A DNA stretch of 64,000 nt, from contig NC_052399.1 of NCBI RefSeq assembly GCF_009389715.1, positions 4,356,938 to 4,420,937 of the forward strand, in the 5' to 3' direction. Source of the DNA: Phoenix dactylifera (taxonomy: Eukaryota > Streptophyta > Magnoliopsida > Arecales > Arecaceae). Both the position numbers and the translations under genes were made by a program. This document shows, one piece after another, positions 2,029 through 28,800 of the stretch (position 1 is the first letter of the stretch; every line of letters begins with the position of its first letter). The notes under the pieces are model-generated. The model did not search any database, was not told the origin of the DNA, and worked only from the letters and a program-made list of their open reading frames with translations.

Positions 2029-2468
2029 TATGGGTGCAAATGGGTCAGGTCAAGAATGGTCCCGATCTAATCCAATTTCTTATTCGGATCTTAATTTTAG
2101 ATCCAGACCCATCGGGTCCATTACTATAATTTTTGATCCAACGGATCATTCGGATCGGATCAGGTCCATGTATAATTCGGATCCAATCCAAAAAATTTAG
2201 GTTCGGTTCAGGTCTGGATCGAGTTTGGTTTGGGTCAACCTATCCATGGCTTCAGAATTTGTATTTGCACCCTCGTGGGCTACAACATGCGGGTCCAAAT
2301 AATTTTACAAATTCGAGTCGGGTTGGATCCGTAGATCCGATTCGGAAAAATGGAACGGATACAATTTTAGGATCCGATCCGGCTCCACAGATCCTCTAAA
2401 ATAGGTCAGATCAGATCTAAGCGGGTCGGGGCCGAGTTATGGATCAATTCGGTCCATTGGTAGCGTTA
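2029..2468. mobile_element. Non-autonomous hAT-like element, family A copy 1
   Basis: Perfect 8-bp target duplications, CTTACAGC, lie at 2021-2028 and 2469-2476. The left end reads TATGGGTGCAAATGGGTC and the right end, on the other strand, TAACGCTACCAATGGACC, an imperfect inverted repeat. The interior is rich in degenerate GGATC, GGGTC and GATCCG motifs, like the better preserved copies at 14862-15772 and 26948-28115. No transposase is encoded. This is the most diverged copy of the family in the window. Confidence 0.75.
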
Positions 2469-2476
2469 CTTACAGC

Positions 2477-5006
2477 GTGGTCCTAACCACCTGCCTCTAA
2501 TGAATGGTGCGTGGGTTCTCACCAAACCCAGCGGCATCTAAGTCAGCCTTCACATCCCTTCACATCTTAACCACCTGTCGTCAAAAAGACGAAATGATGC
2601 CAACTTAGGTTCTTGCACGAAATTAGGGATGACTCATGGCATCGCAAAAGATCCGATGCAGCGTCTCGTTGCATGCGTAGCTGTGCGTGCATGATTCTTA
2701 TCGTCGCTGTGCGATTTTTGGAACCCAAAGCCATACCAGTCGGCGTAGATATCGATTTAGACCCTGAAGCATTTCTGTTCGGGACCAATTTGCATCCTAC
2801 TACATTGCCTTTGGTCCTCTAAATTTGTCTCCCTGATTTCAATTCGATCTGGATTTAGATTTGGATGGGATCCACCCACCCACGATCATCTCCTTTCGAT
2901 GTTTATCTGGATTCTTTCTCCGTGGTTCATGATCTGTTGTTCCAATATCATTTTTCCCCCCTCAAGAGGTGGTCATGGAGGAAATGGAATTGCCAAAATT
3001 TAAAGATGTTCTAGTTTCAATTTTCCCTCTCCCTTTATAGATCATGTTTCAGACCATCACTTCCTTATCAAAACTAATGATTATAATTGACAATGAGGAA
3101 CTTTTCCTCATCAGAATTGAATAAATTATATTTCAGGCCATCTCTCTCTCTCTCTCTCTCTCTCTCAGCACAAACCGATCCAATAATGTATCGCATAAAT
3201 AGATTAGAAATGATTGTCAGAAATTTTTTAATAATTTATAACGAATTAAATATGTATATTATAATATAAAAATTAGTCTTTCCAATAGGGATTGCATGTT
3301 AAGTGTGCATTAATGAAGCATATAATGTTGATGCTCAGGACCAGGAAGAGTTAGGAAAGAGTTAAGAAAATATAACCATGTTGAAAGTCTTCAAAAATCA
3401 GTTTCGATCTGCCACATCAGCCAGTAGATTGGAGTGCATATGACCTGTGCATAAACACAATAGCTGCAGGTAGAGGCTTACATGTACATCTTGTGCAATG
3501 TATGGGTATACAACTAGTATATTATAAAAGCTGTGAAACTAAAAGTAAATGTTCCACCCACTCAATTAAAAGAATGAAGTTGATATAACAATGATTGCAA
3601 GAACTTTTTTTGACATTTGTAATGATTTATAGGGAATTAATCCATCTTTCCATTTGCATGGAAATAGAAAATAGATGTATATGATAAAAGCAACTAGAAT
3701 CCTTTTTTTTTTTTTTTGCTACGTTAGATCAGCACTCAGTTTTCACTAATACTCCAAAACTCTCTTGAGAAGGAGTTATGCTCAGTCTAATGATTATTGT
3801 GGATTCACATGCGCAAGCTCTAGAATTGGTGGAGAGACTGTGACACATGGATCTAGTGATAGTGAGATAGGTCTAGGGAGATCTTGTGCGTACCTAACTT
3901 GGTACCAAACAAGCAATGTCACTCACAGCCTGATGACTAGGATGAATTTCTAGAGATTTCTAGATTATAGAGGTTAGACAACGCTGTATGTTGTGGTTCA
4001 AATCTGGCCTGAGGGTGATCAAGCTGGTTGAGCCGAGGGAGCCGCCGGTATGGAGAGGGAAAGACGGGAATCACCTCCTGTGTGACGGCTGCGAACCTGC
4101 ACATTTTGGATCAAGTTAGAGTTGGCAAATTTTGGATCAACCAAGAGAAAGTCCCCTAGAAAATACCTAATCGAGCTATTTATAGCCTCGGTGGAGTGGC
4201 CCGGATGTCGAAGGTACTGTCAGTCCCCATCATGAGGGGGTATGGCTCTAAACTGGATGGCGTGCAGCTCAGATGGGCAGGTGACGTGCGGTACAGTTCA
4301 TTCTTAAAGATGGTAGGCGTTGACAGTCATAGCAGGGCATGGCTGGAGTAGTCATGGTGCCTTCTGACTGCTGTTGACCGGTTATGAAGGTATGACGCGG
4401 TAGTGTGGTGGAGTACGACCGCGTAGGTGGGTGTGGGCCTGCACGTGGATGAGGTTGTTGGCGAGGCCGACCTCGTTAAGTAGTCACGTCATGCGTTTAG
4501 TGAGGCTGGCTTGGTGTAGGCTGGGAGGGCATGATTTTCTGGGTTCCGAGGTGTACTCGAGGGAGCGCTCCGAGCCCGAGGGTCGGAGTGTTGGGGTCAG
4601 CGTCTCGAACTTTGTCGGGACGGATCGGCGTTTATCGGGAGGCACCCCGAGCTCGGTCGGGGGAGTCGGCGAATGCCCGGAGTTGGTGGAGTTCCGAGGA
4701 CGAGCTGGCTCTGGGTCGAAGTGAAGGTTTAGCCATTCGTCGTTGGTATTTACTGGGCCAAAAACTGGGTGGCCTTTTAGTTGTGGGCTGGACGATCCGT
4801 TTTTCCCTCTATCATTATATATGGTAATTTTTTCAGGTTTATATTGCATGCACTAAAGGAGATGGGCTTAAGGATTCATTTAGTAGACAAAAAAACCTTT
4901 TTTTCCCTAAAAGATGATTTTTGAAAGAATATAATATTTAAAAAATAGTTTTGGCATGTTTGGTCGATCATAAGAAAGTGCTACATTTTAGAGTAGTTTA
5001 TGTTTA
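2477..5006. other. Intergenic; possible LTR remnant at about 4000-4850
   Basis: No supported gene. A (CT)13 tract is at 3141-3166. The stretch from about 4000 to 4850 is GC-rich, with a TATA-like CTATTTATAG near 4168 and repeated GAGCCCGAG/CTCGG words. This resembles the LTR of a plant retrotransposon, but no TG...CA ends or target duplication could be fixed. ORFs in this block show no protein-family motif. Confidence 0.3.
3141..3166. repeat. (CT)13 microsatellite
   Basis: Uninterrupted TC dinucleotide run. Confidence 0.95.
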
Positions 5007-5021
5007 GTTGAGCATTTACTT

Positions 5022-5364
5022 CTTTTTTTTTTTGCTAAGGAAAAGAAAAGAGGGGGGTGAGGAGGACCTCACCGACGTAGCAACCCCCACTGGGCCTTCT
5101 CCCGCTGGAGAATGTTCGATACGAGTAGACATATTTTACTCATACTCTCCCAATCCACGGAGGAGCCCCACCAACGTGGCAGCCCCTTCTACGTGTGAAT
5201 ACATCACACCAGCACCATCTAATTACCGGCAGACTAGATGGCGACTCCACCGAGCAACCCAGACGGGGGGCATCCGACCTCCGCATTTAATCAACGCCCG
5301 CGCGTTTCAAACCTGGGCCATTTCAGTAGAATCTTAGCCCCGTTCCAGCCGTGCTACCATCTCG
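5022..5364 (-). mobile_element. tRNA-derived SINE, full length
   Basis: The element is flanked by a perfect 15-bp direct repeat, GTTGAGCATTTACTT, at 5007-5021 and 5365-5379. Read on the minus strand it starts with CGAGATGGTAGCACGGC, a tRNA-like head with an A-box-like segment. It then has a B-box-like GGTTTGAAACG (complement of 5303-5313). It ends in a poly(A) tail, seen as the T run at about 5023-5033. Length (343 bp), internal Pol III-type promoter, A tail and long target duplication together fit a SINE. It codes for no protein. Confidence 0.85.
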
Positions 5365-5980
5365 GTTGAGCATTTACTTTTCTAAAAAGATTGTACGAAA
5401 TGTCTATTATATTCTTAATAAATAAAACAACATTACTCATAGATTTTGATAGTTTAAGAGTATTGTTGAAAAATAAAAAGAACCTAATTTTCTACATATG
5501 AAAAAGTAACTTTTTTATATTCTCTTTTAATTTTTTTATACCAAAATATGAGAATCTTATTTTCTTAAACATCTTTTTTTTAAAAAAAAAAAAAAAACTT
5601 CAACTAAGCAAGTAATTTATTTTTGTTTTTCAGTTAACCATACTTTTTTTTTTTTTTTTTTTTATTGCGCATGCGCGCAAGAAAAGAGTGTAGGGTGTTG
5701 GTGTCGGGGTTCATGCCATATGGCACGGCCTAGTGGTTGTACAGTCATATGTACTTACTAAGGGTTTTGAGGAAATTTTCAGAGGGTTCGGTCCCAGTTT
5801 CGGTGGGGAAAATTTAAGGATGCGAGCCTTTAGAAAGATGCTAGCTGACAATGTGCACAGTCATATGCACTTACTATTGCTGCCAACATCGCAGGTGGCA
5901 GTGGTAGCTACCACTCGGAAAATGGTGGATCCTACCATGTACATGGCGAGGGCCACAATAGCACTAGGTAAAACATAACA

Positions 5981-6194
5981 GCTTGTGTGCTACTTTTCAT
6001 TATCTAAAAGATTAGTCTTTACCCACGTTTCATTTGAGATTTAACACCTACAATCTACTAGTCTAATATTCTTTCACTGCTTGTGTGTGCGCGTGTGCTT
6101 GTGTGCTGCTTTTCATTATCTAAAAGATTAGTCTTTACCCACATTTCATTTGAGATTTAACACCTACAATTTACTAGTCTAATACTCTTTCAGG
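5981..6194. repeat. Tandem duplication, two copies
   Basis: Copy 1 is at 5981-6076 and copy 2 at 6097-6194, offset 116 bp. They share the run from GCTTGTGTGCT through TTTCATTATCTAAAAGATTA to CTACTAGTCTAAT-type sequence with only a few mismatches. A GT/GC-rich spacer separates them. Confidence 0.85.
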
Positions 6195-9100
6195 GCATGC
6201 GCTCGCGTGTAGAGCAAGTAATGGAAGTAGTCTTACAGCTTTTTCCGCTCATTATGCGCCCAAGCTAGAGAAGACTGTTCATTGCAAGTAATCCCATTAT
6301 TAGGAGATTTTTTTGATAAGAATGTTGAGCAAGAGCCCTTTTTTCTAATATAAAGTATATATTTCCTTAACCTTATAGCACAATTAGCCCAAATGTGTTT
6401 ATATACATCGATCCCCAAGTTCATGACATTACATTTGAAGAAGACATCTTGTGCATATCTCACAGCGATACGAGATGTATTTTGATTAATGAGAGTTCCG
6501 TTTGTTGCAAAGGAGGGGATGCTTTATCACGATATATAGTTAACCTTTCTTAGGGGGAAAATATTTTGCACGGAGCTTTGTTTGTATTTTAGGGCAAAAA
6601 ATGTGCTAGATTCCAACTTGCAAAAGAACTTGAGAGAGAATAGCTGCACTAAATGCTACATAAGTTGGTAAATCAAGTTTCTTTTCAATAATTTTACTTC
6701 CTTGCTTGAGAAGTGCAGGCGTGCAGCCCATGCGACTATTACTGATAAAAAATCATGGAACGGGCAAAATTTTTTCCTAATGACCTCCTTGTTCGACCAC
6801 CTTTTTTTTTAAAAAAAAACCTATTTCAACAAGTTAATTAGTTTTCGAAGCATGATATGACAACTAACGTAATCCTATCCATCAACCCAATTATAATGTG
6901 ATCTTAGCTTGGTTTGGATCAAGCTTGGGAGACATCAAACGCATGCAAATTAACCAAGCAACGTACATGGGAAAGAGGATATATAAGCCTTGTGCTACGC
7001 AATAAAAATTGTTTATAGGAGTAGAGCGAATCATTGCAAAGCATGGAAGAGTCCACATGACACGAACCAGTTTTTCTTGACCAACCAAGCTGGTTGGTCG
7101 GGTTTGGAGAGAGAGATCCGGCTGCAGTCTCTCGTGCGTGCGAGCGCGAAGCAGTCGAGAAGTCAGGAACCGGGCGGTGACCGCATCGCACCTCGACGAC
7201 GCCTTTTGAGAGCCTGTGTGCTCGAAGAGGCTGATGCTTCGCATGAAAAGATGGGGTCACAAAAAGAAAGGGAATTTTATCATTGTGTTGACGTCACCTG
7301 CTGTCCATTGACCGATGACCATGCCACGTGAGTGCAATCCAACCCACAAACCCCATTCCACCTCCGTACTTAATAGAGGTTCCTAAAAGATTAAAAAAGA
7401 AATGTTGTACATGGGCTTTTAGTTCATGCAATCTTACCATCGTATTTATACGCTGCCCAAAATTTTAATTCAATTTTTTTTTAATTGAACCAGATCAATC
7501 GCTGAGCTAATGAATCAGACCAAGCAAAAAGGTGATATCGCGCCGATAAACAAAAAAACTCGACCCGAACCAACCAACAGTGGATTGGATCAGATATATG
7601 TTGAAGAAAAATGTTTAATTTGATGGACAAGTTTCTATGGATATGGGGTGATATTTTTGAAAGCATCTTAATCCATGCTCAAACACTAAATTGGAATCTA
7701 TTTCTGCTAGGGTTCCGATGAGTTAACATTTAGGATCTACATGGTTTTACACTTTGAATGTGGATCATATTCTCTGCAAGACTACAGTCTTATTTTAAAT
7801 AGAAGAGACCAGTTATACTGTGAATCGATAGGTAGGCCTTCAATTATTTAGGCCAGAACTATTTGGGTTTGGTCATGTCTAGTGGGGGTGGTGCACTTGG
7901 CGCTACATGTATATTGTCCTTAAAGTAGAAAGATCTGTACAAATATGATGTCCGTATGTATATATGTGTCTCCAAGTCATTATGGTACTATATTTAGATA
8001 GTTAAAGTGGGTTAGGTGAAAACACTGCCCGTCATTATAGTATCACTTGCCATGAAAAGGCAAAGGAGGGCGGTGGAGGAAAAGAGAAGAAAAAGCAGTC
8101 ATGTCATTGAAACCCTCCTCGTTGGGCTTTGGTCATGGTCATGCATGGAAGCATTTCCCTAGGAGAATCGAATCAGACCAGCGTCCTCTCTCTTCTTTTT
8201 TTTTTGTGTGCTTTCTTTTCACAGTTTAACATCGCCCCTTTAACTTCACCCGAGAGAATGGAAGGCATATCATCCTATGGTTTTGAAACACCCTCGTCGC
8301 TAACACCATGAGAAAGAAAGAGGAGCAAAAGCAAAAGCAAGCCCACTCAAATAAAAACACGAAGGGTCAGAAAAAGAAAAGGGATGTGAAGTTGCATAGA
8401 TTAATATCAAACATGAGAAGAAGGCGGGGGAGGAGGGATCTAAAACAAAGGAAAAGATGGTCAACACCGTCCTCGAAGACTACTTCCATTGTCTTTCTTT
8501 ATAGAAGCTCACCAGTTGTTCCTTTACTTCTTTTCTTTCAGGCATTTCACTTAGTGCATGAGAATTAATAAAAGGATGCTTTCTCCCTCCTCAAAAATTC
8601 CTCGAGTCTCTCTCAACCATGAGAAAAAGATAAAAGATAAAGCTCTGGTAGAACACAATACAATCTACAGTTTTATGCTTATACCACTTTGAGGTTCTTG
8701 GCTTAGGCTTTTTTATATTCTTTCACATAGATATATACACATAATACGTTAATATATATTCATATGAGTACATGGATGCGTAGTCATATATGTAATTTAG
8801 TACTGAGGATTTCACATCGGATGGAAGTCAATGACAAAAAGAGAATCTACAACCATGGTATCAGATTGATGGGATAAGATTGGCTTGGCCAATTTTGTAT
8901 GCTTGCAGCTTGCATGAATGTGTAATGTGTGTGGATATACGTTTATGTGAGTTTCCGGACTTCTTTCCTCAAAATCCATCAAACGAACGCATACTTTTGG
9001 CCTGAATTGTACATATAATTAAAGGAATATTTACTCTCAAGGGAAAAAGTTTGAAAAAGCAACGGCTAGTTTCCCAGTTGGTGACCGTTAGGGAGTGGGT

Positions 9101-9883
9101 TTTTTTTTTTTAAAAAAAAAGAAGAATAAGAGGCGCGTCTTTCCTGTCAAAGGTTTTTCTTATGTGTGGAATATTCACTTGGTCTGCTCCTTGAGATTAT
9201 TTATGCGTTCCATGCATGTTCCTTCTCATCCAATCCTACGTCAACATGAAAGCACCCCCCTCAAGCTCGAGCCACGTGGACCTGAGCTCGTGGCGACACA
9301 TCAGCATGGAACACCCCCCCACCTCAATGCCCTTGTAGGCCCACATTGATTTCTTTGTCATTCTAAACCGAATTCTGAGATCTAGCTAGTTTTCATCTGA
9401 AATGCTGAATCCTTCTGGAAATGTAATCTAGTACGACTAACTTCTGACACTAGTAATTAAATATTTGCATAGCATGGAGGCAGCACGCGAATAAGAGATC
9501 TCGGGCCTTTTTGAATTATTGTTATGGAATATCTCCAGGGTGAATCGATGGCCTTTTGAATTATTGATAAAGGGGAGGGAAGGTGGTAAAGAATAAGAGA
9601 TCGGAATGGGTTTTTGCCAATATGGGATTTGATTCTTAGGGTAAAATCATACTATACTACTCCATCTTCAGACGACCCCACAGACTCTACTCTTAGGCAT
9701 ATACGCTCCCACAAATGGCAAGTGCATCTAAAGTTCTCCTAAACGTGCATGCATGTGTGAGCTAGCGGCGCTCATGGTTTCAGCAAATTGAACTATGTTG
9801 AAAAAAAAAGAAAAAAAAATTTATTTATGTCTGTCAATTATAATATATAGGAGTAGCCTTTATATAGAACTAGAAGGCTGACA

Positions 9884-9961
9884 AAGTTTGGTAAAGCCGA
9901 CTAAGTTTGGCACAATCAATCATAAATCAATTAAGGTGAAGTTTGGTAAAGCCGACTAAGT
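9884..9961. repeat. Pair of 23-bp direct repeats
   Basis: The words AAGTTTGGTAAAGCC and GACTAAGT run together at 9884-9906 and again at 9939-9961. Their origin is unknown; they could be a target duplication or a local slippage product. Confidence 0.8.
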
Positions 9962-10380
9962 ATCACTTAGTAATACATAGAAACGGAGAATTTATCTTTA
10001 TTTATTTATTTTTTTTTTGAAAGAACATCGATTTCCGATTAGCCAGGATTGTTGCACAGTAAATGAGATTCCATGTGGGGTGAGAATCATGTAAAGAAGA
10101 GGAGGTTGGAGGCCAGATGCGAAAATTACTCTCTACACCATGATGCACGCACTTCACTTCTCTCCTACCCATGTCTAAAAAGATGTTACTAAGAAAGCCA
10201 ATTTGAAATTCTCCCCAAATTTGTCGATCTTTAGCATCCCTCTCAATGCCTTTCTCTTCTTTTTCTTCTTTTAGTTTTCTGTGATTCCATTGTTCAAAGA
10301 GTGGCAGTGAAAAAGAAAAGAGGAACATCCCCGGGCCTCCACACCCAAGCTTGATTCCCAATAATTGAGGCCTGCGCAAG

Positions 10381-10387
10381 TATAAAA
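10381..10387 (+). promoter_or_regulatory. TATA box of the RanBP2-finger gene
   Basis: TATAAAA lies about 690 bp upstream of the start codon. It is followed by a C-rich stretch and a plausible transcription start region near 10412. A good donor follows at about 10500 (AG|GTAAGC), so the gene appears to have a 5'UTR intron that ends at the acceptor GATGGCAG (about 11060). Confidence 0.6.
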
Positions 10388-11071
10388 CCCCCCCCAACGC
10401 CCCCCAAACCTAATCCACAGCAGCACACAAGCTCACCAAGCATTCCTCTCATCTCCCATTCTCACCCCCGTCATTTCCTCCCTATCACCTTCTAGCTAGG
10501 TAAGCAAGCCCTTCTCCACCCCTGCTTACTCTCCTCTGCTTTCTGGTTCAATCTTTGCTTCCATCTCTGTGCTCTTGTATGCTTTCATGCCTGGCAGAAT
10601 GGCCTGCAATGACCACGTAGCTGCATCTCATGGCTCGCTTCATTGCATAGCAGAGTCTCATGTGATCCCAAGTTCGAGCACTTGGCGCAGAAGGCTTGGC
10701 ACGTACTATTAGTGTAGTTTCAGAAGGAATTAGTATCACTTTATGGTACTAGCTAGCTAGTATGGTTTCAAACTTCCAATTATATATAGAAGCAGGACCT
10801 TGATGTATTTCCCTGCTTTACTTCAATCTCTCTCTCTCTCTCCTTATTTTTGTTCTGGTTATTGATCTTTTGGCTCTTACTTCCTAACAATGCAACCTCC
10901 TTAATTCTGGAAACTGCCATCTAGTTGAAAAAAAGATTGGTACAGCAAAAAATACTTGGTTATTTTTGGTCGTGTCTTTGCAATACCATAAGACATCCAC
11001 GAGGAACGGTGTTTTATTTTCTGTCTCTCTCTCTCTGTCTTGTTGTTGGGATGATGGCAGGGTTTGAGAAG

Positions 11072-13422: not shown

Positions 13423-13434
13423 TTTTTTTGGTCA
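13423..13434 (-). mobile_element. Ultra-short poly(A) insertion
   Basis: The 12-bp insert, TTTTTTTGGTCA (TGACC plus A tail on the minus strand), lies between AAGACCGAAACGTTCCC (13406-13422) and AAGACTGAACGTTCCC (13435-13450). These flanks look like an aged target-site duplication. Confidence 0.55.
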
Positions 13435-14855
13435 AAGACTGAACGTTCCCTTCATCATCTTGCCCAAACTTGAAACAGCATAGCAGATGCCTTTTAAAAG
13501 CTAATGCTATGATTCTTCTATCGTTATCTGCATGGTCTAGATTTCTGTGCATGTTTCTCCAATTATCTTCAAGATTTGCAGCAAATGGTTATGGTGGAAG
13601 ATATTTGATATATTTGTTCCTTATCACTATTAAGTTTGACACAATTAATTCATGAATACTAAATTGGACATTATTATAGGTGAAGAAGAATTAATATATT
13701 TACTAAGAAAACATTCATTGATTTGCTTACCTTGGATTCTCTTATCTTTTGAGCTGACTTTACAAAGGCTTCCTAGATTGAGCTCCTCCATGTGCTACCT
13801 GAGTAATAGAATCGGTCAAAAGTCTATGACACATTCATGAATGTTTCCCTCCACCCTCCATTACCTCAGCTTTTAGCAAGATTCTTGTCCCTCCTTTAGG
13901 CCAACTTTATGTTACTTCAGCTATGCGTTGGTTTTCCAGCTTTTATCATTATCTTGTACAAAGCCAACTGATTAAAGAGCACTTGTGTGGTGTTTTCTTC
14001 TTGGTTTTTTGGTGACGCGTCAGTACTTGCATCCATCTAGCGGCCTTTCATTCATGTGAATGCAACACAAAGACGTAAGTCATTTAAAGCCAACTTGGAC
14101 ATGGATGCTCAGCGTGCATGTTTCCAGCCAACAACTCTGTGGAACGTCCCTGGACTAGGCTATTTTTAATGTTTTTCATGTTTAATTAATTAATAACTAA
14201 TTTTTTTCATTTTTTTTAATAATTTTAAGTATAATTTGATATGTTTTAACCATGAAGCATTGTAGTCTTGTATGCTCATCCTACAAGGAATGTGCTCTGA
14301 GTTATAAGCACTCTCATATCTCTCATTGAAGCTTTGGCTCTGAGAGGTACTTTTTAGCTTGTAATATGGTTGTGAAAAGGCCAATCCGAATAAGCCGACA
14401 GCAAAATCCGACTCGTAAGATGCTCTATGTTGCGCAAGGTAGTAACCACAGAAAAATGATGCCTCAGACGTACCATATCCATATCCATATCCGTATGGGT
14501 CATGGTTACTTGTGGATGTGGATAATAAGTCCAATATACTCAGAATATGATACGTCTATGAATCCTACTCCATATGTAAGGTTGTTTGCAGCTGCATCGT
14601 GTCCTCTTGAATAACCTCGAGGTACCCATCTTCTATATGCAATCATATCCTCGCGAGCTCTACCAGATCGTGCACTGTAGTCCCTATCCTGTATAGCATG
14701 ATATACTGGGACTCAATGTTGAATCAAAGTTCACCATACGATTGTCTCATAACCGGTGGTCTCATGTCTTCCACTTCCTTCCTAGCCAGTAGATCCATGA
14801 CCACTAGAGTTGCTGCTCTTGGTCTCTAAATTTGAGTGAACTGGCTCCTCCTCCA

Positions 14856-16004
14856 CAGGAGTAGGGGTGCAAATGGGTCGGATCGGGTCGGGTCTAAGGT
14901 GACCCCGATCCGACCCGGTTTCTTGTTCGGGTCCCAATTTTGGACCCAGACCCGACCCGGTTGAAGATCGGGTTGGGTCGGGTCGGGTCCGAGTCGGGTT
15001 CGGGTCGGATCGGGTCCGGATCCGGATCGGGTCCGGATCCGATCGGGTCCATTTTTTTGTGTTTTTGGGAAAAAATTTGGGTCAACCTAATTTGGTCATA
15101 TCATAATTATGAGGTGCTGGGTGACCCATGACTTGAAAGACTTTGCAATTGAGCTCCAGTCAGAACAAATGACCCATGACACACTATTTTTTATCTATAT
15201 GACTGATTGGACGGAACTCGGTGTCTCCCAGCTCCCCTCTCACGAGGACAAAAAAAATCCCAAACCTTCTTCCAAATCCAATTCCATTACAGAAAACTGG
15301 CACATGACCCATATTCAGTTGCAGTGTTCCCTCACTTTCTCCCTTCAAAAGTTAAAAGAAACAAAAACCAAAAAACAGAAGGAAAAAAACAAAAGGCAGC
15401 TACCGAGACACCAGAGGTCTCAACAGTGTAATAGATCGAGAGAGAATCCTGACGGGCCGACGTTCCTTTAGATTCTGTGAACCTATGCTTGTTGCTAACT
15501 TGCTATCCTCCCACACTGACCAACAGTACCTCAACCCACGCCAAAAAAAAAATAAAAAGAAAAAAAAAAGACTTTCTTTTGCTTTTCCTCTCTCTCTTCG
15601 GGTCCATTCGGGTCGGGTCGGGTCCGTTTGGTAAACCCAGACCCGACCCAGAAAATGATTCGGGTCCAATTTTAGGACCCGACCCGGACCCGCGGGTCCT
15701 AAAATTCGGGTCGGGTCGGGTCTACGCGGGTCGGGTCGGGTCACGGGTCGACCCGACCCATTTGCAGCCTTACACAGGAATGGCCCAATGCATTTGGGGG
15801 CCTAAAGTAAACTCACTAAGAGGGATCTTTTTTTCTTTCTGTTTTATTTTTGAGGCCTTTCCTTTAGTGGGCCGGCCTAAGACAAACTCACTAAGAGGGG
15901 CCTTTTTTCTTTCTATTTTGTCTTTGAGGCATTTCCTGCGGTGGGCTTTCTTAGAGCCGGGGCCTTAGGCGACCGTGTCTCGCCTAAGAGTTGGGCCAGC
16001 TCTG
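14856..16004. mobile_element. Non-autonomous hAT-like element, family C copy 1 (interrupted)
   Basis: Perfect 8-bp duplications, CTCCTCCA, lie at 14848-14855 and 16005-16012. The left end is CAGGAG+TGGCCCAA, split by the nested family A element. The right end on the other strand is CAGAGCTGGCCCAA. Without the nested element the body is about 230 bp. The body holds a 75-bp tandem duplication with the words AAACTCACTAAGAGG and TTGAGGC, followed by GCCTTAGGCGACC and CGCCTAAGAGTTG. The same element, inverted, is at 58809-59005. Confidence 0.7.
14862..15772. mobile_element. Non-autonomous hAT-like element, family A copy 2 (nested)
   Basis: The ends are TAGGGGTGCAAATGGGTC and, on the other strand, TAAGGCTGCAAATGGGTC. 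Flanks are CACAGGAG (14854-14861) and CACAGGAA (15773-15780), an 8-bp duplication with one mismatch. Both ends carry long arrays of CGGGTC/GGATCG-type motifs in inverted orientation (14875-15055 and 15598-15760). They could fold into a very GC-rich hairpin. The middle (about 15060-15590) is AT-richer and unrelated. The element inserted six bases inside the left end of a family C element, which itself sits in a hAT transposase remnant. Confidence 0.8.
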
Positions 16005-17620: not shown

Positions 17621-17660
<40 letters not shown>

Positions 17661-17779
17661 GGGGAGGAGGAAGGAGGAAAGGGGAAGAAAATGCTATAAA
17701 ATTTCATGTATAATCCTATAGGATCAAAACAACATCTCATCATAAATTTTAACCTAAGGTTATAAATCCTAAGTGTAGC
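17047..17779. other. Intergenic with purine tract
   Basis: There is a purine-only stretch at about 17601-17690 with a (GA)n core (17622-17657). No gene is supported. Confidence 0.5.
17622..17657. repeat. (GA)n microsatellite in a purine tract
   Basis: Uninterrupted GA dinucleotides, flanked by GGA/GAG triplets, lie on one strand. Confidence 0.95.
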
Positions 17780-19947
17780 CATGATTTAAAATTTCAGTAA
17801 ATCACAACAAAAAAAGAAAAAGCATAAGAAAAAGGAAAGAAAGCATGTTAATTGGTAATGTTTTCAAGACATCCATTAAGCTTGGGATTTTATTTTTTTT
17901 TGGTGGCAGCAACAACTTTCACTTGTTGCATAAAAAACCATGATTTAAAATTTCAGTGCATCACAACAAAAAAAGAAAAAGCATAAAAAAAAGGAAAGGA
18001 AACATGTTAATTGGTAATGTTTTCAAGACATCCATTAAGCTTGGGATTTTTTTTTTCGTGGCAGCAACAACTTTCACTTGTTGCATAAAAAACCATGATT
18101 TAAAATTTCAGTGCATCACAACAAAAAAAGAAAAAGCATAAAAAAAAGAAAAGGAAGTATGTTAATTGGTAATGTTTTCAAGACATCCATTAAGCTTGGG
18201 ATTTTATTTTTTTTTGGTGGCAGCAACAACTTTCACTTGTTGCATAAAAAACCATGATTTAAAATTTCAGTGCATCACAACAAAAAAAGAAAAAGCATAA
18301 AAAAAAGGAAAGGAAACATGTTAATTGGTAATGTTTTCAAGACATCCATTAAGCTTGGGATTTTTTTTTTCGTGGCAGCAACAACTTTCACTTGTTGCAT
18401 AAAAAACCATGATTTAAAATTTCAGTGCATCACAACAAAAAAAGAAAAAGCATAAAAAAAAGAAAAGGAAGTATGTTAATTGGTAATGTTTTCAAGACAT
18501 CCATTAAGCTTGGGATTTTTTTTCTTTTTTTTTGGTGGCAGCAACAACTTTCACTTGTTGCATAAAAAACCATGATTTAAAATTTCAGTGCATCACAACA
18601 AAAAAAGAAAAAGCATAAAAAAAAGGAAAGGAAGCATGTTAATTGGTAATGTCTTCAAGACATCCATTAAGCTTGGGATTTTTTTTTTTTTTAGTGGCAG
18701 CAACAACTTTCACTTGTTGCATAAAAAACCATGATTTAAAATTTCAGTGCATCACAACAAAAAAAGAAAAAGCATAAAAAAAGGAAAGGAAGTATGTTAA
18801 TTGGTAATGTTTTCAAAACATCCATTAAGCTTGGAATTTATTTCTTTTTTTTTGGTGGCAGCAACAACTTTCACTTGTTGCATAAAAAACCATGATTTAA
18901 AATTTCAGTGCATCACAACAAAAAAAGAAAAAGCATAAAAAAAAGGAAAGGAAGCATGTTAATTGGTAATGTTTTCAAGACATCCATTAAGCTTGGGATT
19001 TTTCTTTTTTTTGGTGGTAGCAACAACTTTCACTTGTTGCATAAAAAACCATGATTTAAAATTTCAGTGCATCACAACGAAAAAAGAAAAAGCATAAAAA
19101 AAGGAAAGGAAGCATGTTAATTGGTAATATTTTCAAGACATCCATTAAGCTTGGAATTTTTTTTTTTTTTTGGTGGCAGTAACAACTTTCACTTGTTGCA
19201 TAAAAAACCATGATTTAAAATTTCAGTGCATCACAACAAAAAAAGAAAAAGCATAAGAAAAAGGAAAGAAAGCATGTTAATTAGTAATGTTTTCAAGACA
19301 TCCATTAAGCTTGGGATTTTTTTTTTTTTTTGGTGGCAGCAACAACTTTCACTTGTTGTATAAAAAACCATGAATTAAAATTTCAGTGCATCACAACAAA
19401 AAAAGAAAAAGCATAAAAAAAGGAAAGGAAGCATGTTAATTGGTAATGTTTTCAAGACATCCATTAAGCTTGGGATTTTTTTTTTTTTTGGTGGCAGCAA
19501 CAACTTTCACTTGTTGCATAAAAAACCATGATGTAAAATTTCAGTGCATCACAACAAAAAAAGAAAAAGCATAAAAAAAAGGAAAGGAAGCATGTTAATT
19601 GGTAATGTTTTCAAGACATCCATTAAGCTTAGGATTTTTTTTTTTTTTGGTGGCAGCAACAACTTTCACTTGTTGCATAAAAAACCATGATTTAAAATTT
19701 TAGTGCATCACAACAAAAAAAGAAAAAGCATAAAAAAAGGAAAGGAAGCATGTTAATTGGTAATGTTTTCAAGACATCCATTAAGCTTGGGATTTTTTTT
19801 TTTTTTTGGTGGCAGCAACAACTTTCACTTGTTGCATAAAAAACCATGATGTAAAATTTCAGTGCACCACAACAAAAAAAGAAAAAGCATAAAAAAAAGG
19901 AAAGGAAGCATGTTAATTGGTAATGTTTTCAAGACATCCATTAAGCT

Positions 19948-19983
<36 letters not shown>

Positions 19984-20020
19984 GTGGCAGCAACAACTTT
20001 CACTTGTTGCATAAAAAACC
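17780..20020. repeat. Satellite-like tandem array, 14 copies of about 159 bp
   Basis: Units start with CATGATTTAAAATTTCAG at 17780, 17939, 18094, 18253, 18408, 18571, 18730, 18891, 19050, 19209, 19369, 19527, 19686 and 19845. Period is 155-163 bp; most variation is in A and T runs. Nearly every unit has a HindIII site (AAGCTT). Each has a short inverted repeat, GCAACAA-CTTTCAC-TTGTTGC, that could form a hairpin. Units 2-3 and 4-5 are near-identical 314-bp dimers (17939-18252 and 18253-18566), evidence of recent higher-order duplication. The unit length matches nucleosome-scale plant satellites. The repeated 61-codon ORFs inside are by-products of the repeat, not genes. Confidence 0.95.
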
Positions 20021-21395
20021 CAAGCAAAATAAAGTTAAATTCTTCAACAAAAAAAAAAGAAAAAGTTAAATTAAACTATATCAACTCCAAAATTAATCCG
20101 TAATTCTTTCATCAACTACTTGTTGAGAGGCCTGGCCTTCTTCCGATTCTTCAAAAGACACATCTCCTCTGCAAACTCGTGGGCCCAAAATGTGTTGTTG
20201 GAGTGGGGGCCCACGCGCAGCCCGTACCCTTTGGCGGTATCGTCCAATTCCTCTCTCTTCCGGGAAGGAAATCTTTTCGTTTTTTGGTATCATCACATGC
20301 CGTAGGAAGGCATTACGGTTACTATAAGTGGAAACTGGCGCAGTCATTATTACTCGCACACCTGAAAGTGTACTCAAAAAATACACCCCGGTAAGAAAAT
20401 ACAGGCGGTAGGAGGCGTCGTTATTGAGTGCGAGACAGTGTCCCACCAATTCGGGTGTCTCAAGAACTTTTGATAGCGCGACCGTTGGGGTTTTAGGGAC
20501 TCCGAGGGGAATTTTGGAACGGCCCTTCGTTTTGCCACGAAGAGATGAATTCGGTTTGTACCAAAAAAAAAGGAGATGAATTCGGAGAATTAAATCAAAG
20601 TTTCCAATTTGGGAAACCCTACTTCCATATCAAGTTTACTCGCCCGCGTCGTCGAGGACTCCGATTTGTTTTCGAACTCCTGCTCGCGAGAGGACTTGGT
20701 TGGGGAATCCAACTCACACTCTTTCTCAATCTCTCTATTTTTACCCGTCCGACGTCCAGAAATTTGTGATGCAATCAGGGTAAGACCATCATCAAAAAAA
20801 ATTTCGCTTTCTTTTTTTTTCTTTCTTGGTTGGCAAATACCCATCTAGATTTTTTTCACCTCCAAAGGAGCAGATGTTCTTCGTTTTCGTTTTCGTTTTA
20901 TACCCAAGCATCTAAATTTTGCCAAGAATTTATCATTAAGGATTCCAGTTATTGCTTGATTTGGGGTTTTCTTGGAATAAAGGGCTTGTTCAACTGTAGG
21001 GCTTATTATTTTTTTTTTTTGCAATTTTTTTTATTGGAGTTTGTATTTGGAGTTTTCCATAGTAGCAGAGGTTTTTTCTCTCAATCTTGAATCCCGTGTT
21101 TTCGTTGATTGCGTTTTTTTGGATCCATATTAGCACCAAAGCTCTAGTTTTTCTCGCAGGCTTCTTGGAACTGATCTTTTTGATTCTTTGGTTTCATATT
21201 TCATTACGAATACTCGTCTGGATATTTTTCTTAGCAGCAGTGTTTGTTTTCGCCAATTTTATGCTCAAGCATTGACTCTTGCTTCTTTGGCTTTGCTTGG
21301 ATTCTAGTTTCTCGTTTCATGCTAGCGTCGAGGGAATTCTCCTAGAAGTTTAGAAGTAAGCAGTTGGAAATTGGTAGATTTGAGCGTTATTTTCA
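20021..21395 (+). promoter_or_regulatory. Promoter and 5'UTR region of the CCCH gene
   Basis: This stretch between the satellite array and the ATG contains GGGGGCCCACG near 20204 (a GGGCCC motif common in plant promoters). A plausible 5'UTR with a donor (CAG|GGTAAGA) is near 20778, so a 5'UTR intron may end shortly before 21396. The right half is T-rich, as plant introns are. No other gene is supported. Confidence 0.4.
20555..20572 (+). mobile_element. Ultra-short poly(A) insertion
   Basis: The insert TTTGTACCAAAAAAAAAG lies between two perfect 13-bp copies of GAGATGAATTCGG (20542-20554 and 20573-20585). It looks like an almost completely 5'-truncated LINE or SINE copy of which only the 3' tail was inserted. 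Confidence 0.75.
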
Positions 21396-24300
21396 ATGGG
21401 TCCTACTCGGGATCGAGCCTCACCTTTCTACATCCCTCTTCCTCCTTTTGCCACTGGTAGCAGCGACAATGTGATCACGTTGTGGCCGCAGAACAATGCA
21501 GACCAGCCAGAATTTGAGGCGCTGCCCTCCAAGAGGCCAAGACATTCAGATGATGCCCCTCTGAATCCACCGCGAAACACACCACCAGTATCAACGATGC
21601 CTCATCCACCAAACCCTCAGACAAACCCTCCAATCAGAGGAACAAGTTGCATGTTTTTCAAGACCCGGCTTTGCCAGAAATTCAAAACGCGGTCTTGCCC
21701 ATGGGGGAACAACTGCAACTTTGCGCATGGGATCGAAGAGCTCCGCCAGCCGCCACCCAATTGGAAGGCGCTTGTTGCCGAGGGACAGGTGAATGGTAAT
21801 GACCAACAGAGGATGCGTAAGAATGAGATCTGCAGGAAGTTCTCTAAGGGAGAGGTCTGCCCGTATGAGGATCGCTGCACTTATCTCCATGTGCAGCGAG
21901 AGAACTTGGGGATGGCCATGGGGTCTATGGCAGGGCCTGGTAGTATTGGGGGATTTAGCTCTGCAGCTGACTGTAATGGCTCTAATCAGAAGCCAAAGGC
22001 AAAGATTTGTTACAAGTGGGAGACCACAGGTCATTGCTCTTTTGGTGAGAGGTGCATCTTTGCTCATGGAATTGCAGGTAATCTTCATTTGTTGGCTTTA
22101 GACATAATAAATTTCATCCAACTTAGTTTTTCTTTCCTTCGAGTTTCTTCATCCTGACTTTGTGCAGTCAACTTTTCAATGCAATTGGAGCTGATATCTG
22201 CCTTTTTTCGATGCTGCGCTGTTGTTTTTTTTATGATCTTGGTCTTTGGAAATTATGTTATTGTAATTCAGTTTTTTTTTCTGCAAATATTACTTTTGTC
22301 TCAGGTGGTCTTTGTAAACCCTGAAATGCGTATTTCTCATTTTTATTGCTAACCAATCTATATTCTTCTAATGATAATCTCTTGCTTGATATTGTGCCAC
22401 CTGTTTTAGTGATCCAGAAAGACCGCTTCTCCACTAGTTAGAGTGTTCTTAGTTATGACATGTTTGCATTGAGTCCATTTTTCATATGCAGTAAATTTTT
22501 GCTTATTTCTAATCTTGTCTTCAAGATTTCTGGAGAGCTTACAGTTCAACACATCTACTGAATCATTACTTGGATTAAAAGTGCAAATTGCTTCTTCACA
22601 ACTGAAATATGAATGACACCTCAAAAGCTTAAACATTGGAGTATGATTAATCTTATAATCCTCACTGTCCAATTGAATAGTTAGTCATATTTAAAGCCCG
22701 AGTTTGGTGTGTGCGTCGATGCATGGTTATACCGTTCAGGAGTTGTCATATAGCTGGAGGGCAATTGCAAATTAAGTGTTTTATTAGAGGGAATGGTCAA
22801 ATGGTTGTTGAGTTGGAGCCTCTCGCCATATCCATATATGGAGTACTGACAGGTAGCGGACAACTTCAACAATATTCATTACTCCAAACATCTGACTTCT
22901 CTCTTCATCTAAATTGTAGGATTCAACTCTTGTTTTGTTTCGTCCATTTGGGTGGATAGCTGGTTTTCTCAAAACCCCCTCAAGTCTTTACAATGCACAC
23001 AGTGTACTATGTATGTTGCCATTTTAATGGCTGTTCACCAAATTTTCATTGTCATTTGTTTTGCTACGAGTTTGCGACATCTCTTGGTCATTCATGTCAA
23101 GTTTCGTATTCATGAAGATGCCTCTGTGACTTCTTTTCCTCATTGTTTGATGAGTAATGTTCCATGTAAATCAAAATTAAGTTTGGTTTTCTCTTTCATT
23201 AATCTGCTGTTTCCTTTAATAATGTTGTCTTTCAAAATCTTGTTATGAGATTGGTATTCTTGTGGACACATGGATACATGCTTTTTTGTTACATGATAAA
23301 GATAGTTTTGCGTTTTCCGGTCACTGTGATATCATGCTGATGATGATCTATGGCATTGATACTCTGCCATTATTTCTCATGATCCATATCCAGTTTTTCC
23401 AGAGTGTATGGTTTGGATTTCACAGTCATGCAAATCTTTTATTGGATGTGCTTTCTTCCCATCTACCAGATTCCTGCTTAGGTCCAACAATGTCTTCAAG
23501 TTTCCATGTCCTCTTTACCATTTCAAGCAACAACTTGGTTATCATTCTATCTAATGGAATAGTAGATTCGTTCTTTGCAATTTTGAGACAACTTGGATCA
23601 TATCTCAGAAGCTTAGTGATTGGACAACAACATTAGTTCTGTAATCCTCAAAAACCCATTGAATACTTAATCATGTACGAATGTCAGGTTTTGTAATTTT
23701 ACCGTTTGATTCAAGATATAGGGGTGTGCATATATGCTCCGTGGTATTATCTTTAGGATATCCTGTATATGGAGGGATGGAACTCTATGAGGGTTTTGCT
23801 GGAGGAGGAATTGTAGGGTTGTTGAGCTAGAGTCTTTAATCAATTTTATTGATATATATGGAATACCGCAATCTTGTCTCAAAAAAATGGAATACTGCAA
23901 TCTGTTTGATAGATACTCCATCACTGCTCTGGTATTTACTACTACCTGCTACCTCATATCCTTAACTGATGCTTCAACTTGTGCTTGCCACCAATGGACA
24001 GTTATCATTTTGGATGGGCAGTTGATTTTTCAAAGACCTTAGAAAATCTTTGTGCGCACACAGTTCACACCCTTTCTGCATCCACTGATTTGCTTCTCCA
24101 TGATTTTGTAGGTCATTCATGAAATAGAATGATATCCATATCTAGGAAAATTTATGCATGATATGAAAGGATACTCTCTTGTGTCAAGCGAGACAATGCT
24201 GGAGAAATGTTATTCCATATCAGATTTTAGTCTCATGGCACGTCTTCTCTAAGTCCAATCAAAGCGACGATAGAAGAAACTCAAAATTGAAACTCAACTA

Positions 24301-24660
24301 TTTTTATTTACTGTTTGTTTCTTGTGTTTGTATTGTAGACCTGTGCTATTCAGGATTTTTGTAAATTAGAGAAGTTAGCTGTGTCCCATAACTTCACATG
24401 CTTTTCTATTTGACACAGAGATGAAGTCTGGAGGCCATGTGGAGTTAGATAGTGGAAAAATCGGAGCAGATCCATCAAAACCTCTTACTAATCCTGCAAA
24501 TAATGTCCTGCCAATTCAGACAGAGCCCAGTTATACGCATCAAGCTCAGCAGAAGAAAGGTGTTTTTCCGAAGTTAGCTAAGAAAAAACTAAGTGGCATC
24601 TATGCAGATTGGATTGATGACACTCCACTCTTTTCCCCGCACCTCTCAAAACAAAGCTGA
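21396..24660 (+). CDS. CCCH zinc-finger protein, three fingers
   Basis: Two coding exons, 21396-22077 and 24419-24660, join in frame across a 2.34-kb intron. They give a complete 307-residue protein. It has three CCCH fingers: CX7CX5CX3H at residues 93-111, CX8CX5CX3H at 146-165 and CX8CX5CX3H at 205-224. A proline-rich N-terminus and a lysine-rich C-terminus with IYADWIDD complete it. This resembles small plant three-finger CCCH proteins thought to bind RNA in the nucleus. The target is unknown; function is inferred from the family. No frameshifts are seen, unlike several neighbours. The intron contains a diverged internal duplication (about 22530-23100 against 23500-24110) and an ultra-short poly(A) insertion at 23875. 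Confidence 0.9.
23875..23886 (+). mobile_element. Ultra-short poly(A) insertion in the CCCH intron
   Basis: The insert TGTCTCAAAAAA is bounded by ATGGAATACCGCAATCT (23858-23874) and ATGGAATACTGCAATCT (23887-23903), 17-bp flanks with one mismatch. Confidence 0.65.
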
Positions 24661-25838
24661 AACTTGGTTTAGGGCCTAGACATCAAAGGCTCTTTCTTTA
24701 TCCAATACTTCTTACTTAGTGTTGGCAGCTCATTTCATACCTTTTTGTAGAAGTTTGGTGGCCATCCATATGTTAGCAGACAACTATCCATGCAAATATC
24801 ACAGCATTGTCTTTCTGCAAAAAAAAAAAGAAAAAAAAAACAGCACTGTCCCTCATTTTGGAGTCATGGGAAAGTTTAGAGTTTTTTCTCTTTTTTCTTT
24901 TTTATCATAATTTTTGTTGTCCAGAGCTATTGAAATGGGTATAACTGTATCATTTGTCATTATACATAATGAAAATGTTACTAATGAATAGTTGAACTGC
25001 TATATGAACTTGTTGATGGGAAGTTGCTTGCAGTTGTTGGTTCTAATTCCCAACTATTGTTAGGAAATTTGGGTATTGATGTATCATTTGTTATTATAGA
25101 TAAAATAACTGTTATTTGGTGATGAATGGTTAATCTGCTACAGGAACATATTGATGGCAAGGTCCTTGTGGTTGTTTATTTTAATTTCCAAGAATTGTTA
25201 GAAGATTTGAAAACCCATTCCTTGTTTTTTTATGATTCGGTATCATCTTTTTCCCTCTTCTTCTTGAAGGTTATGAATTTGTCATTTATTAATTATATGA
25301 AAAGTAGTTCAATGTGGGAATCTAAAATGGGGCTCCCATTATCTATTAGATACATTATTGCTAATTATGGAGTAATCAACTTTTCTAATTGTGTGGAATT
25401 TATTGCTTATATATTTTTTATTAAAAATTTATTTAGATGATTGGTTAGACTAGTTTAATTAATAAAATTATAAAATTATGGGTTGAGCTAGATCTATATT
25501 CAAAGCTTGTCGGGCGCGTTAATGTCGAGAGGAGACTTTTGAAGGCACCCACGTCGGATGTCACTGTTCAAAAGAAAATATCAGCCTCTGGGTGTTTTCG
25601 TGGGTGTTATTTCCCGGCCCGATAAAATGAGACAGAATTTGTGGGCCCAGTAATCATCCACTTTCTGTGTTCGACGTATAAGCATCCGACCCCACAAGAA
25701 ACTAACACGTCGCAAGCTCGGATCACCTACCGGCGTAGTTTCTTCTCCTCCGTTCTCTCGTCTCTTGTACGCAAAGAAAGGCATGTCCGCTAGCCCGCTG
25801 CTAAAACCCTAACCTTACGACCAAGGATTTCACCCGCC
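24661..25838. other. CCCH gene 3'UTR and intergenic spacer
   Basis: The 3'UTR probably runs to about 24950. A small A-tailed insertion is at 24812-24839. The rest is AT-rich without a supported gene. From about 25500 the sequence becomes GC-rich, consistent with a promoter and 5'UTR for the next locus. Confidence 0.45.
24812..24839 (+). mobile_element. Ultra-short poly(A) insertion in the CCCH 3'UTR
   Basis: The insert is TTTCTGC followed by an A-rich tail. It lies between ACAGCATTGTC (24801-24811) and ACAGCACTGTC (24840-24850). Confidence 0.6.
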
Positions 25839-28800
25839 ATGCCCGTCCATCTCGAAACCCACCCCCTTCGGCGGCTCCACGCTCGCCGGACCGGCTGGCT
25901 CGTGCTCACCCGATTCTGCTCTCGAGATCCTCTAGTCCCTCCTCGTTGCCGGCGCCGACCAGGGGTGCTGTCCCGGTTTTAAGGTGCTGGCCTTCAGAAA
26001 GGGCCGGCCTTTGGATCAACCTTCGGAGCCCGTGTCGGTTTTCCGCCAAGATGGCATCTTGGATCGGTTTCCCCTTCCAACTTTAAGGATTCGTCGGTGG
26101 ATGACTTCATTTATCTGGAGTCGGGATCCAAGGAGGATACCGACACGGTGTAATGGGATATCGACGTCTCTTCTTCTTATTCTTCTTGCATTGTTGGATT
26201 GGGCGGTGGGGATGATGGCGGGTTGCTACTGATTGGGCCAACACTGATGCCATGGGGGAATTGGCGATTGCGGGTCATGTACGCAATTCTCTTCCTCTTA
26301 ATCCTCTGTTGGTTTTTATTGGTCCATTAACTGACGGAAGAACAAATCTTGATCTTTCTTAACAGTGCACCTGAAACCTCTATCTAAAATTGACTTTAAG
26401 CGACCAATTTAAACTCTTTATTTGACATTCTATAACCGGCGCTGTGATGAATCCTTGATTGTTAGTTAAAAATTGAAAGAGAAAAAGAGAGAACCTTCTG
26501 GCAATCCTGGTGATATCAAGGTAGGGAGAATTAGAAACAAATCTTGATCTCTTTTCCCGGTATGGAAGTCTTTTGTACCTATGAAATTGGGTCATTTTTA
26601 CCACAATTTTATTGTATCTGTTGATTTTTAGGAGGAACCTTGGTGACCATCTTCTTCTTCTTTTTAATTTAAAGACTTTATATCACCGGAACAAGCTGCT
26701 CTTTTTTTTTGCATTTTCAATTAAATCACTCTTTGAATTACTGAATTTCACCTCCTGATGTATGGTAAAAAAGGAACTGAAGTTCATTCTGCCTAAATAA
26801 TTTTTGTGCTTATAAATTGTTCTATATCACAACTATGGCATTCCTCCTGCCTTTTGGTCAGGCTCAGGCATTACTAGAATGGCATAACGTGTGGCATTTC
26901 TTTGGGCATTGTGGAGCCTTCCCAATGATGCAGGGAGCCATAAGCAGTAGGGGTGGCAAAATATGACCCGACCCGCCAACCCGACCCGTGTTCGACCCGC
27001 CATAAACAGGTTTGGGTTTGGCCTAAACAGGTTCGGGTCGTAAACAGGTCGACCCGTTTAACCTGTTTATTAATTGGGTCGGATACGGGTTTTAGATGTC
27101 TGACCCGTTTAAACCGTTTAACCCGTTTAATATATGGGTCGGATTGGATCAGACAAGGTGGCCCAAGTCTTGGCCCAAAGAAAAGCAATAACTACCTATC
27201 TCCACAGCCCACAGGTTGCTTAGCCCACAATCCAGCGTGATTTAATGAGATGGGACGGGTCACGGGGTCAGGAACAGGTAGTCAGGCCGAACCCATCTGG
27301 CCATCTCTCTGTCGCGTTTCCGTCCCTCATCTCTCCCTCCATCGCGTCGAACCCTCCAAACCTCCAATCCTCCATGGATGATGGACCCGGCTCTCTCCCT
27401 CTCGTCGTTGAAACCTCCTGGCCTCCCACCTCTCCGGCTCTTCCTCTCTTGACGAAAGAAATCCCGAGTTCCGATCAGCGGCTCGGTGCAGCGCTGCAAC
27501 GACAGCACAGCGGCGGTCGCATGCCTCGCGGTAGATCTCGAGTTCGATCAGTGAAGCTCCGGCGGCGACGCGGCAAGACGGAGGCCGATCGGAGAAGAAG
27601 ATGAGCAGTGATTTTTTTTTTCTCCTTTACCCTCCCGCCTCTCTCTCTCGATCTCTCTCCTCTCTCTCTCTCTCGGTCTCGATCTCTCCCTCCTCTCTCT
27701 CTCGGTCTCGATCTCTCCTCCTCTCGGTCTCGATCCCGATCTCTCCTCCTCTCTCGGTCTGGATCTCGATCTCTCCTCCTCTCTCGATCTCGGTCTCTCC
27801 TCCTCTCTCGGTCTGGATCTCGATCTCTCCTCCTCTCTCGGTCTCGGTCTCTCCTCCTCTCTCGGACTCTCTCTCTCTCTCTTTCTCTCGTCTCTTCCCC
27901 TCCCATCCAGCCGGGCAGCCGGTCCCCATCCTTTCCTTTCCTTAAACAGGTCTTAAACGGGTCGGTCAGGTGACCTGTTTATTAAACAGGTCGGGTTCAG
28001 GTTATAAATCCTGACCTGTTTAATAAACAGATCGGGTTCAGATTTATAATATTTTGACCCGACCTGTATCTGACCCGACCTGTTTATGCCTGATCCGACC
28101 CGATTGCCACCCCTAATAAGCAGTGCACAGATGCGTCCTGCAAAAAGAGAATTTATCCTCGAGTTGGTCCTATATGGTTGTGATCCCATTTTATCTCTCT
28201 TGCTGTCTGCCTCCCTCGTTAACATTATTGCATAGTATAATTGTATATTAGTGTGCGGCTAGCCATGTCTGCTAACTTCAGTTGGTCAAAATCCAAAGAA
28301 AAATATTACTTATTTAGATGCCCATAAACTCCAATGTTAGTCTTGTGATAAGTTATACACAGAATTGTTAGAAGGCTTAATCTTATCACTGTGATGTATG
28401 ATTTTGAGCAGGTGGTCGTTGTGCTAGTCATTGACAAAGTAAACGTTCGATTCCTTTTGAGCTGTTAGTCAAGATTCATGCCTTGTATATGGAGTTGTCT
28501 TGCTGGTTTTATATAGGAATGGAATCGACTTGTTAGATTTTATGAGATTAAGCTATCTTTTTTTAGCAAGGATCTTCATTATTGCGTATGGTCTAATAGG
28601 TTTAATCTTTATGTGGCACTGATATGCATTAAGACATTCATCACAATGATTTGCAAATCTCTTGAAATTGTCAAAATCTGGCATTGTATACCGCCTAACT
28701 TCTCATGGTGTATTTTACAAAATTAATTTTGCTATATCAATGGAAAATCGATTATTTCTTTTTCAAAGTTCCTAAAGAATGATTTGGTAATATTTTCTAT

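Follow-up and report, generated by a model that had tools for sequence, protein, structure and literature searches.

Probable non-autonomous hAT elements of two families with arrays of short GC-rich words in their arms in the date palm genome

The 64,000-nucleotide stretch of Phoenix dactylifera DNA analysed here (the window; positions 4356938-4420937 of contig C8, NC_052399.1, in an assembly of 773,078,369 bases and 2391 contigs) carries three elements, E1, E2 and E3, which are very likely non-autonomous, Ds-like cut-and-paste elements of the hAT superfamily belonging to two families, with the arrays of short words that fill their arms serving as putative transposase-binding subterminal repeats. 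The assignment to hAT and the interpretation of the arrays as candidate binding sites, both first put forward in a sequence-only reading of the window, are supported by genome-wide copies with target-site duplications, by a transposase-encoding relative with similar arms (the L042 element) and by a hAT transposase domain located beside an E3-type end on contig C5.

All three elements lie on the forward strand of the window. E1 (2029..2468, 440 bp) is a degenerate copy of the E2 family with GGATC-rich arms; on direct reading it starts with TATGGGTGCAAATGGGTC, and it is flanked by perfect copies of the target-site duplication CTTACAGC at 2021..2028 and 2469..2476. E2 (14862..15772, 911 bp), a non-autonomous element with GGGTC arms, has the ends TAGGGGTGCAAATGGGTC and TAAGGCTGCAAATGGGTC, the final letters being GACCCATTTGCAGCCTTA, and lies between the duplications CACAGGAG (14854..14861) and CACAGGAA (15773..15780), which differ by one mismatch. 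E3 (26948..28115, 1168 bp), a non-autonomous element of the second family with GGGTC and AAACAGG words, has TAGGGGTGGCAA at both ends and perfect copies of ATAAGCAG at 26940..26947 and 28116..28123. The duplications, perfect in E1 and E3 and with a single mismatch in E2, are thus of the 8-bp type of the hAT superfamily. The consensus for hAT terminal inverted repeats (TIRs) is given as [T/C]AGNGNNG or, in a looser form, [T/C]A[A/G]NG in the accessible part of the source (PMC6027215). The left end of E2 and both ends of E3 fit the stricter form, the right end of E2 (TAAGGCTG) fits only the looser one, and of the two ends of the degenerate E1, TAACG on the right agrees with the looser form and TATGG on the left with neither form. 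A tblastn search of the window with the 660-residue hAT transposase described below gave no match, so E1-E3 look non-autonomous. The coordinates, ends and duplications of the sequence-only reading, together with the GGGTC/GGATC enrichment that it reported, were all borne out by direct reading and by comparison with shuffled sequences.

The enrichment of words was assessed against 200 dinucleotide shuffles per element. E2 contains 40 GGGTC words (shuffle mean 4.6, maximum 12), and the word map places its left array, of GGGTC and GGATC, at 14875..15049 and its right array, of GGGTC, at 15600..15759. E1, the right end of which is degenerate, is mainly a GGATC element, with 17 GGATC (mean 2.8, maximum 9) and 6 GGGTC words (mean 1.7, maximum 5), and E3 combines 16 GGGTC (mean 4.7, maximum 10) with 9 AAACAGG (mean 0.14, maximum 2) and 5 AAACGG words (mean 0.57, maximum 4). 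Altogether, 46 of the 54 occurrences of CGGGTC in the window fall inside the three elements. Every arm, the arrays of E2 included, holds words in both orientations, rather than forming part of one long inverted array as had been described initially. In the window and the stretches L041-L064 taken together (237,464 bases), annotated elements contain 30 of the 33 clusters of GGGTC, which agrees with the expectation that the arrays are mostly confined to elements, although the share is biased upwards because L043-L060 were selected by their ends. The remaining three clusters, the only ones of the sample outside annotated elements, are a TTGGGTCGACCCAA-type repeat at L041:4771-5192, near a copy of the 660-residue transposase family.

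E1 and E2 are diverged copies of one family, and E3 is a member of another. Alignment of the E1 and E2 arms gives local scores of 53 (left) and 69 (right), as compared with at most 28 and 24 for 100 shuffled sequences, and the aligned arms are 73% and 75% identical. The E3 arms score only 21-33 against those of E1 and E2, with shuffle maxima of 23-30; five of the eight pairs slightly exceed their own maximum, which is attributed to the common words, since shuffling destroys words. Furthermore, of the 18-bp end that had been regarded as common to all three elements, E3 has the tip TAGGGGTG in common with E2 but not the whole end. The strong E1-E2 scores and the weak E3 scores thus point to two families instead of the single one originally proposed, which was ruled out as E3 is unalignable with E1 and E2 beyond the words.

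In the whole genome, the 18-bp E1/E2 end is matched with up to two mismatches at 2581 places (1293 + 1288), as opposed to two (1 + 1) for the reversed control. As the right-end form TAAGGCTGCAAATGGGTC departs from the search pattern at two positions and is thus within tolerance, the total includes ends of both kinds, and there are fewer elements than matches, perhaps half as many. Among the first 18 exact copies of the 18-mer, which are consecutive on contig C1, 15 have both ends present, with lengths of 471-1945 bp. Other copies do carry 8-bp duplications, as anticipated: both ends together with a duplication of at most one mismatch are found in 11 of the 18 (six perfect and five with one mismatch), and in one more, L045, a 7-of-8 duplication is shifted by one base. 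In a search with the whole of E2, the best 40 of 3351 candidates, E2 itself included, are all 86-100% identical over most of its length. An E2-like and an E3-like element occur about 4.2 kb apart at both C3:16274374-16279745 and C3:16602383-16607776, probably as a result of segmental duplication.

The arms are conserved around cores that differ from element to element. In a set of 14 E2-family elements of more than 700 bp, from which the shorter E1, L047 and L048 were excluded, the cores fall into six classes without detectable mutual similarity: the E2 type (approximately 15090..15590 in E2) is found in eight, E2 counted, L043 and L045 represent a second, and L050, L054, L056 and L057 have one each. 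The left arms of L043 and L049 are 96% and the right arms 97.6% identical, and their cores have no detectable similarity. The core of E3 (approximately 27160..27930) is CT-rich, without a transposase match, and unrelated to the E2-family cores; the earlier claim of unrelated cores thus stands for E2 and E3, E1 being too short for a core in that test. Among the best 40 of 1531 candidates in a search with E3, four further copies match near full length at 93-95% and one over positions 1-1123 at 85%, and the left arm (1-183; 26948..27130) is found with 98-100% identity at 26 other places, which resemble hardly any other part of E3 apart from the right arm. At 25 of these the right arm (995-1168; 27942..28115) is matched at 82-90% some 400-440 bp further on, so these are elements of about 560-600 bp with a different core, and the disparity between the two arms suggests arm exchange or gene conversion. 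Published descriptions of maize Ds2 and Ds-l4 include common termini around filler cores, and unrelated cores between shared ends are ordinary for Ds-type elements, as far as the accessible text of that study goes (PMC3260210).

Transposase-bearing relatives were sought with a PF05699 profile search of the genome, of which the best 150 of 1658 candidates were scored. An element search around a PF05699 locus that asked for an exact 8-bp duplication and 11-bp TIRs with at most two mismatches, 1.5-8 kb apart, gave a single element, L042:2372-7809 (5438 bp), with the perfect duplication CTCCCCGA and TAGGGCTGGAAGTGGGC at both ends. Its 660-residue open frame contains a PF02892 BED domain (52-96), a PF14372 RNase-H-like domain and a PF05699 hATC domain, and the protein is alignable to full-length Hermes, BED included (E 1.4e-17). 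The arms of the element are densely filled with CGGGCC/GGGCCG words in both orientations. Both the left and the right end consensus of the E2 family agree with the left end of the L042 element at 19 of 24 positions, the word letter accounting for two of the five differences, and the E3 ends agree with it at 10 and 14 of 24. When GGGCC is recoded as GGGTC, the L042 and E2-family left arms align with a local score of 51 instead of 37, although the rise is of little weight as the recoding itself favours a higher score. A search with the 660-residue protein gave 76 matches among the best 67 of 1635 candidates, at least 17 of which extend over at least 656 of the 660 residues with an identity of 95-100%. 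Internal stops are absent from 13 of these, and the family looks recently active, judging by these copies.

The PF05699 hit at C5:8055085 is followed downstream by the stretch L063, which contains TAGGGGTGGCAATCGAGTCGGGTCGG and after it AAACAGG-type words, and the right arm of E3 aligns with this end over 150 of 172 columns (87% identity; score 222, shuffle maximum 25), which places an E3-type right end, at about C5:8053256, 1.8 kb from a hAT transposase domain. Arrays were also seen near other transposases. Downstream of hAT transposase frames of 685 and 597 residues on contigs C10 and C14, L061 and L065 have dense CGGGCC/GCCGTGCC arrays within about 0.8 kb of the hATC domain, and they represent another hAT family with GC-rich word arrays. 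A CGGGCTCGAGC-type array, a further word type, lies downstream of another PF05699 hit in L070 (C8:11976900-11977550), and the stretches seen of L062, L064 and L066-L069, which flank other hAT transposase families, contained no arrays.

The E1-E3 elements would thus retain, on either side of an exchangeable filler core, only short TIRs and arms of about 150-250 bp that are crowded with a word specific to the family: GGGTC and its GGATC variants in E1 and E2, GGGTC together with AAACAGG in E3. Seventeen E2-family copies vary less within words than between them (233 of 2549 versus 311 of 2358 differences), a comparison that is supportive only, as the words were defined by consensus and the copies are related rather than independent. 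The words would be recognised by BED zinc fingers in the N-terminal part of a transposase whose gene lies elsewhere, which we infer in line with published hAT systems: in the parts of the sources available, the Ac, Tol2 and Tag1 transposases bind short subterminal repeats, with TGACCC at the right and AAACCC at the left end of Tag1 (PMC3143072), Ac binds AAACGG (PMC3260210), and the BED domains of Hermes bind subterminal AAGT/AAGC repeats, 17 and 14 per end (PMC10368747). The many sites may jointly load a multimeric transposase on both ends before cleavage at the tips; both word orientations would then occur because many separate sites are used, and the hairpin potential would be a side effect.

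The distribution of GGATC adds a further aspect. Over 498 word places in 17 E2-family copies, G-to-A changes number 53 at word position 1, 24 at position 2 and 68 at position 3, and C-to-T changes at position 5 number 51. In terms of methylation context, position 1 is CG when a C precedes, position 2 is CHG and position 3 is CHH. Decay of 5-methylcytosine usually follows the order CG > CHG > CHH. Changes at position 3 exceed those at position 2 (p 1.7e-6) and do not differ significantly from those at position 1 (p 0.17), thus the usual order is not followed, and plain 5-methylcytosine decay is at most a candidate explanation of the GGATC words of E1.

Several results weigh against the interpretation of E1-E3 as hAT elements with binding-site arrays. 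Within the sample of 18 copies, L044, L047 and L057 have both ends without a duplication, L052 has a left arm with arrays and no right end that could be found, and L053 and L059 carry the 18-mer in near-identical unrelated sequence without arrays; the latter two have the identical flanking 8-mer ACTTGCAA. Drift in the source copies could account for the surplus of GGATC, and the correlation of GGATC content between left and right arms of the 17 copies is not significant (Spearman 0.47, p 0.055). The C5 element of E3 type has unproven bounds, its left end not having been reached; the pattern expected for the far end is TTGCCACCCCTA followed by CTAGTTGG, above C5:8055330. Finally, neither the PF05699 loci nor the sampled copies yielded a transposase gene enclosed by ends of the E1/E2 type, and tblastn of the 660-residue protein against L043-L060 gave no match. 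A left-type E1/E2 end with an array was likewise absent within 1.5 kb of 30 PF05699 loci, in a search whose pattern misses the right-end form and in which all 30 loci match the 660-residue family, whose ends lie further out. At 29 of these loci there are only 0-5 GGGTC words, and the 15 at the remaining one, L023, are of another type.

The foregoing bears on the alternative that E1 and E2 have no dedicated GGGTC transposase and are moved by that of the 660-residue GGGCC family, which we regard as rather unlikely. The agreement of the ends at 19 of 24 positions and the apparently recent activity of that family, with its near-full-length stop-free copies, speak for such cross-mobilisation, but the word letter differs across most of the arms, and published hAT transposases vary in the words they bind, so far as the accessible part of the report describes them (PMC3143072). 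In addition, decayed sister transposases of 60-70% identity (C918:35535-37517, C12:3159133-3160650 and C17:3439224-3440747) could be the lost partner of E1 and E2.

It is far less probable that the arrays are simple-repeat expansions, produced by replication slippage of a 5-bp unit and located at element ends by chance without any role. The 5-bp spacing in 21 of 47 word intervals of E2 and the whole 5-bp units by which aligned E2-family arms differ are what slippage would leave, but the two families and the GGGCC element alike have arrays in each arm, in both orientations and with conserved non-repeat spacers, and both the share of clusters within elements, in a sample selected by ends, and the greater variation between words than within them argue against slippage. 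The least likely proposal, that DNA shape itself acts, with GC-rich hairpins or G-quadruplexes at the ends marking or stalling replication and so promoting transposition or fold-back amplification, can draw on GGGTCGGGTCGGGTCGGG, which fits the quadruplex motif G3N1-7, on the four quadruplex motifs in E2 and one in E3 among nine in the window, on arms of E2 and E3 that fold as single-stranded DNA better than shuffles (z -4.5 to -8.3) and on a 14-bp perfect inverted repeat with an 11-bp loop in the right arm of E2 (AATTTTAGGACCCG / CGGGTCCTAAAATT, 15668..15706 by direct reading, in a region aligned in 17 copies), but repeated words in both orientations are expected to produce structure automatically, E1 with its GGATC words has no quadruplex motif and arms whose folding does not surpass that of shuffles (z about -1.2), so structure is not found throughout the family, although E1 is old and decayed and need not be mobile, and for quadruplexes and hAT subterminal regions only work on transposons and replication surfaced in the accessible literature. 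A function for the hairpins mentioned in the sequence-only reading, or for quadruplexes, is thus unsupported.

Some other features of the window stand apart from the elements. Positions 17730-20094 contain a satellite-like tandem array with a unit of about 159 bp, in which 13 overlapping 300-nt copies are 69-100% identical to a reference copy; an apparent copia-type long terminal repeat retrotransposon at 43310-48822 has minus-strand frames, recognised by eye as gag/pol-like, between repeats that are 98-99% identical; and a tandem pair of 114-nt copies with 89% identity lies at 5981-6210. Rfam gave no matches at the gathering threshold, and of two scans of IMG/VR one gave none and the other two matches (L001 and L002), to unrelated DNA.

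Taken by themselves, the elements are unremarkable plant hAT derivatives of high copy number, but one genome with related families that have alike end layouts and different words offers an opportunity to study the co-evolution of BED fingers and words, which single-family models such as Ac, Tag1 and Hermes do not readily permit; moreover, one such family still has 13 near-full-length, stop-free transposase copies at 95-100% identity. A tentative idea, which we consider doubtful though conceivable, is that the families form a natural series in which BED fingers and words changed together letter by letter (GGGCC, GGGTC and GGATC, with the AAACAGG/GGGTC family further off), and that arrays of dozens of sites would act as an addressable code against cross-mobilisation.

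Among known systems, the closest likeness is to maize Ac/Ds, where Ds2 and Ds-l4, as described in the available portion of the source, have 8-bp duplications, short TIRs, shared subterminal repeats, variable filler and a length of about 1 kb, as do E1-E3 in general outline (PMC3260210). In contrast to Ac/Ds, the word is GGGTC/GGATC and not AAACGG, the array is dense, with the 40 GGGTC words of E2, and an autonomous partner of E1 and E2 was not found among the loci and copies searched. AAACGG, the word of the maize family, occurs not at all in E1 and once in E2, in both cases at or below shuffle level, and only E3 has its five copies. The 11-bp TIR of Ac differs in its letters from TAGGGGTGCAA. 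As for the terminal ~200 bp that Ds2-type elements have in common with the autonomous element, the right arm of E3 has its 87% identity to the transposase-side end, and the filler cores of E2 and E3 differ.

Tag1 resembles E2 in that its transposase motif TGACCC, located in subterminal repeats according to the accessible text, contains the E2 word GACCC (PMC3143072). Unlike in Tag1, the E2 words occupy both arms in both orientations, and TGACCC is present only six times, once in the left and once in the right 220 bp, as against the 40 GGGTC; the other Tag1 motif, AAACCC, is found once in E2 and shows no excess (shuffle mean 2.1). Hermes is linked by the full-length alignment of the 660-residue relative, BED included, and by the BED-bound subterminal repeats at its own ends, although these are AAGT/AAGC and not tandem GC-rich words in the parts of the report available (PMC10368747). 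Within the date palm, the 660-residue family is similar to E1 and E2 in its TAGGGCTG end, its 8-bp duplication and its dense pentamers in both orientations in both arms, and differs from them in having C for T as the word letter and an open transposase frame. A literature search, limited to accessible text and not covering Repbase, retrieved nothing on these ends or arrays. Ds-like hAT elements whose subterminal regions hold arrays of binding sites are already well known as a kind; the distinction here lies in how dense the arrays are and in the presence, within one genome, of families with GGGCC, GGGTC/GGATC and GGGTC plus AAACAGG words.

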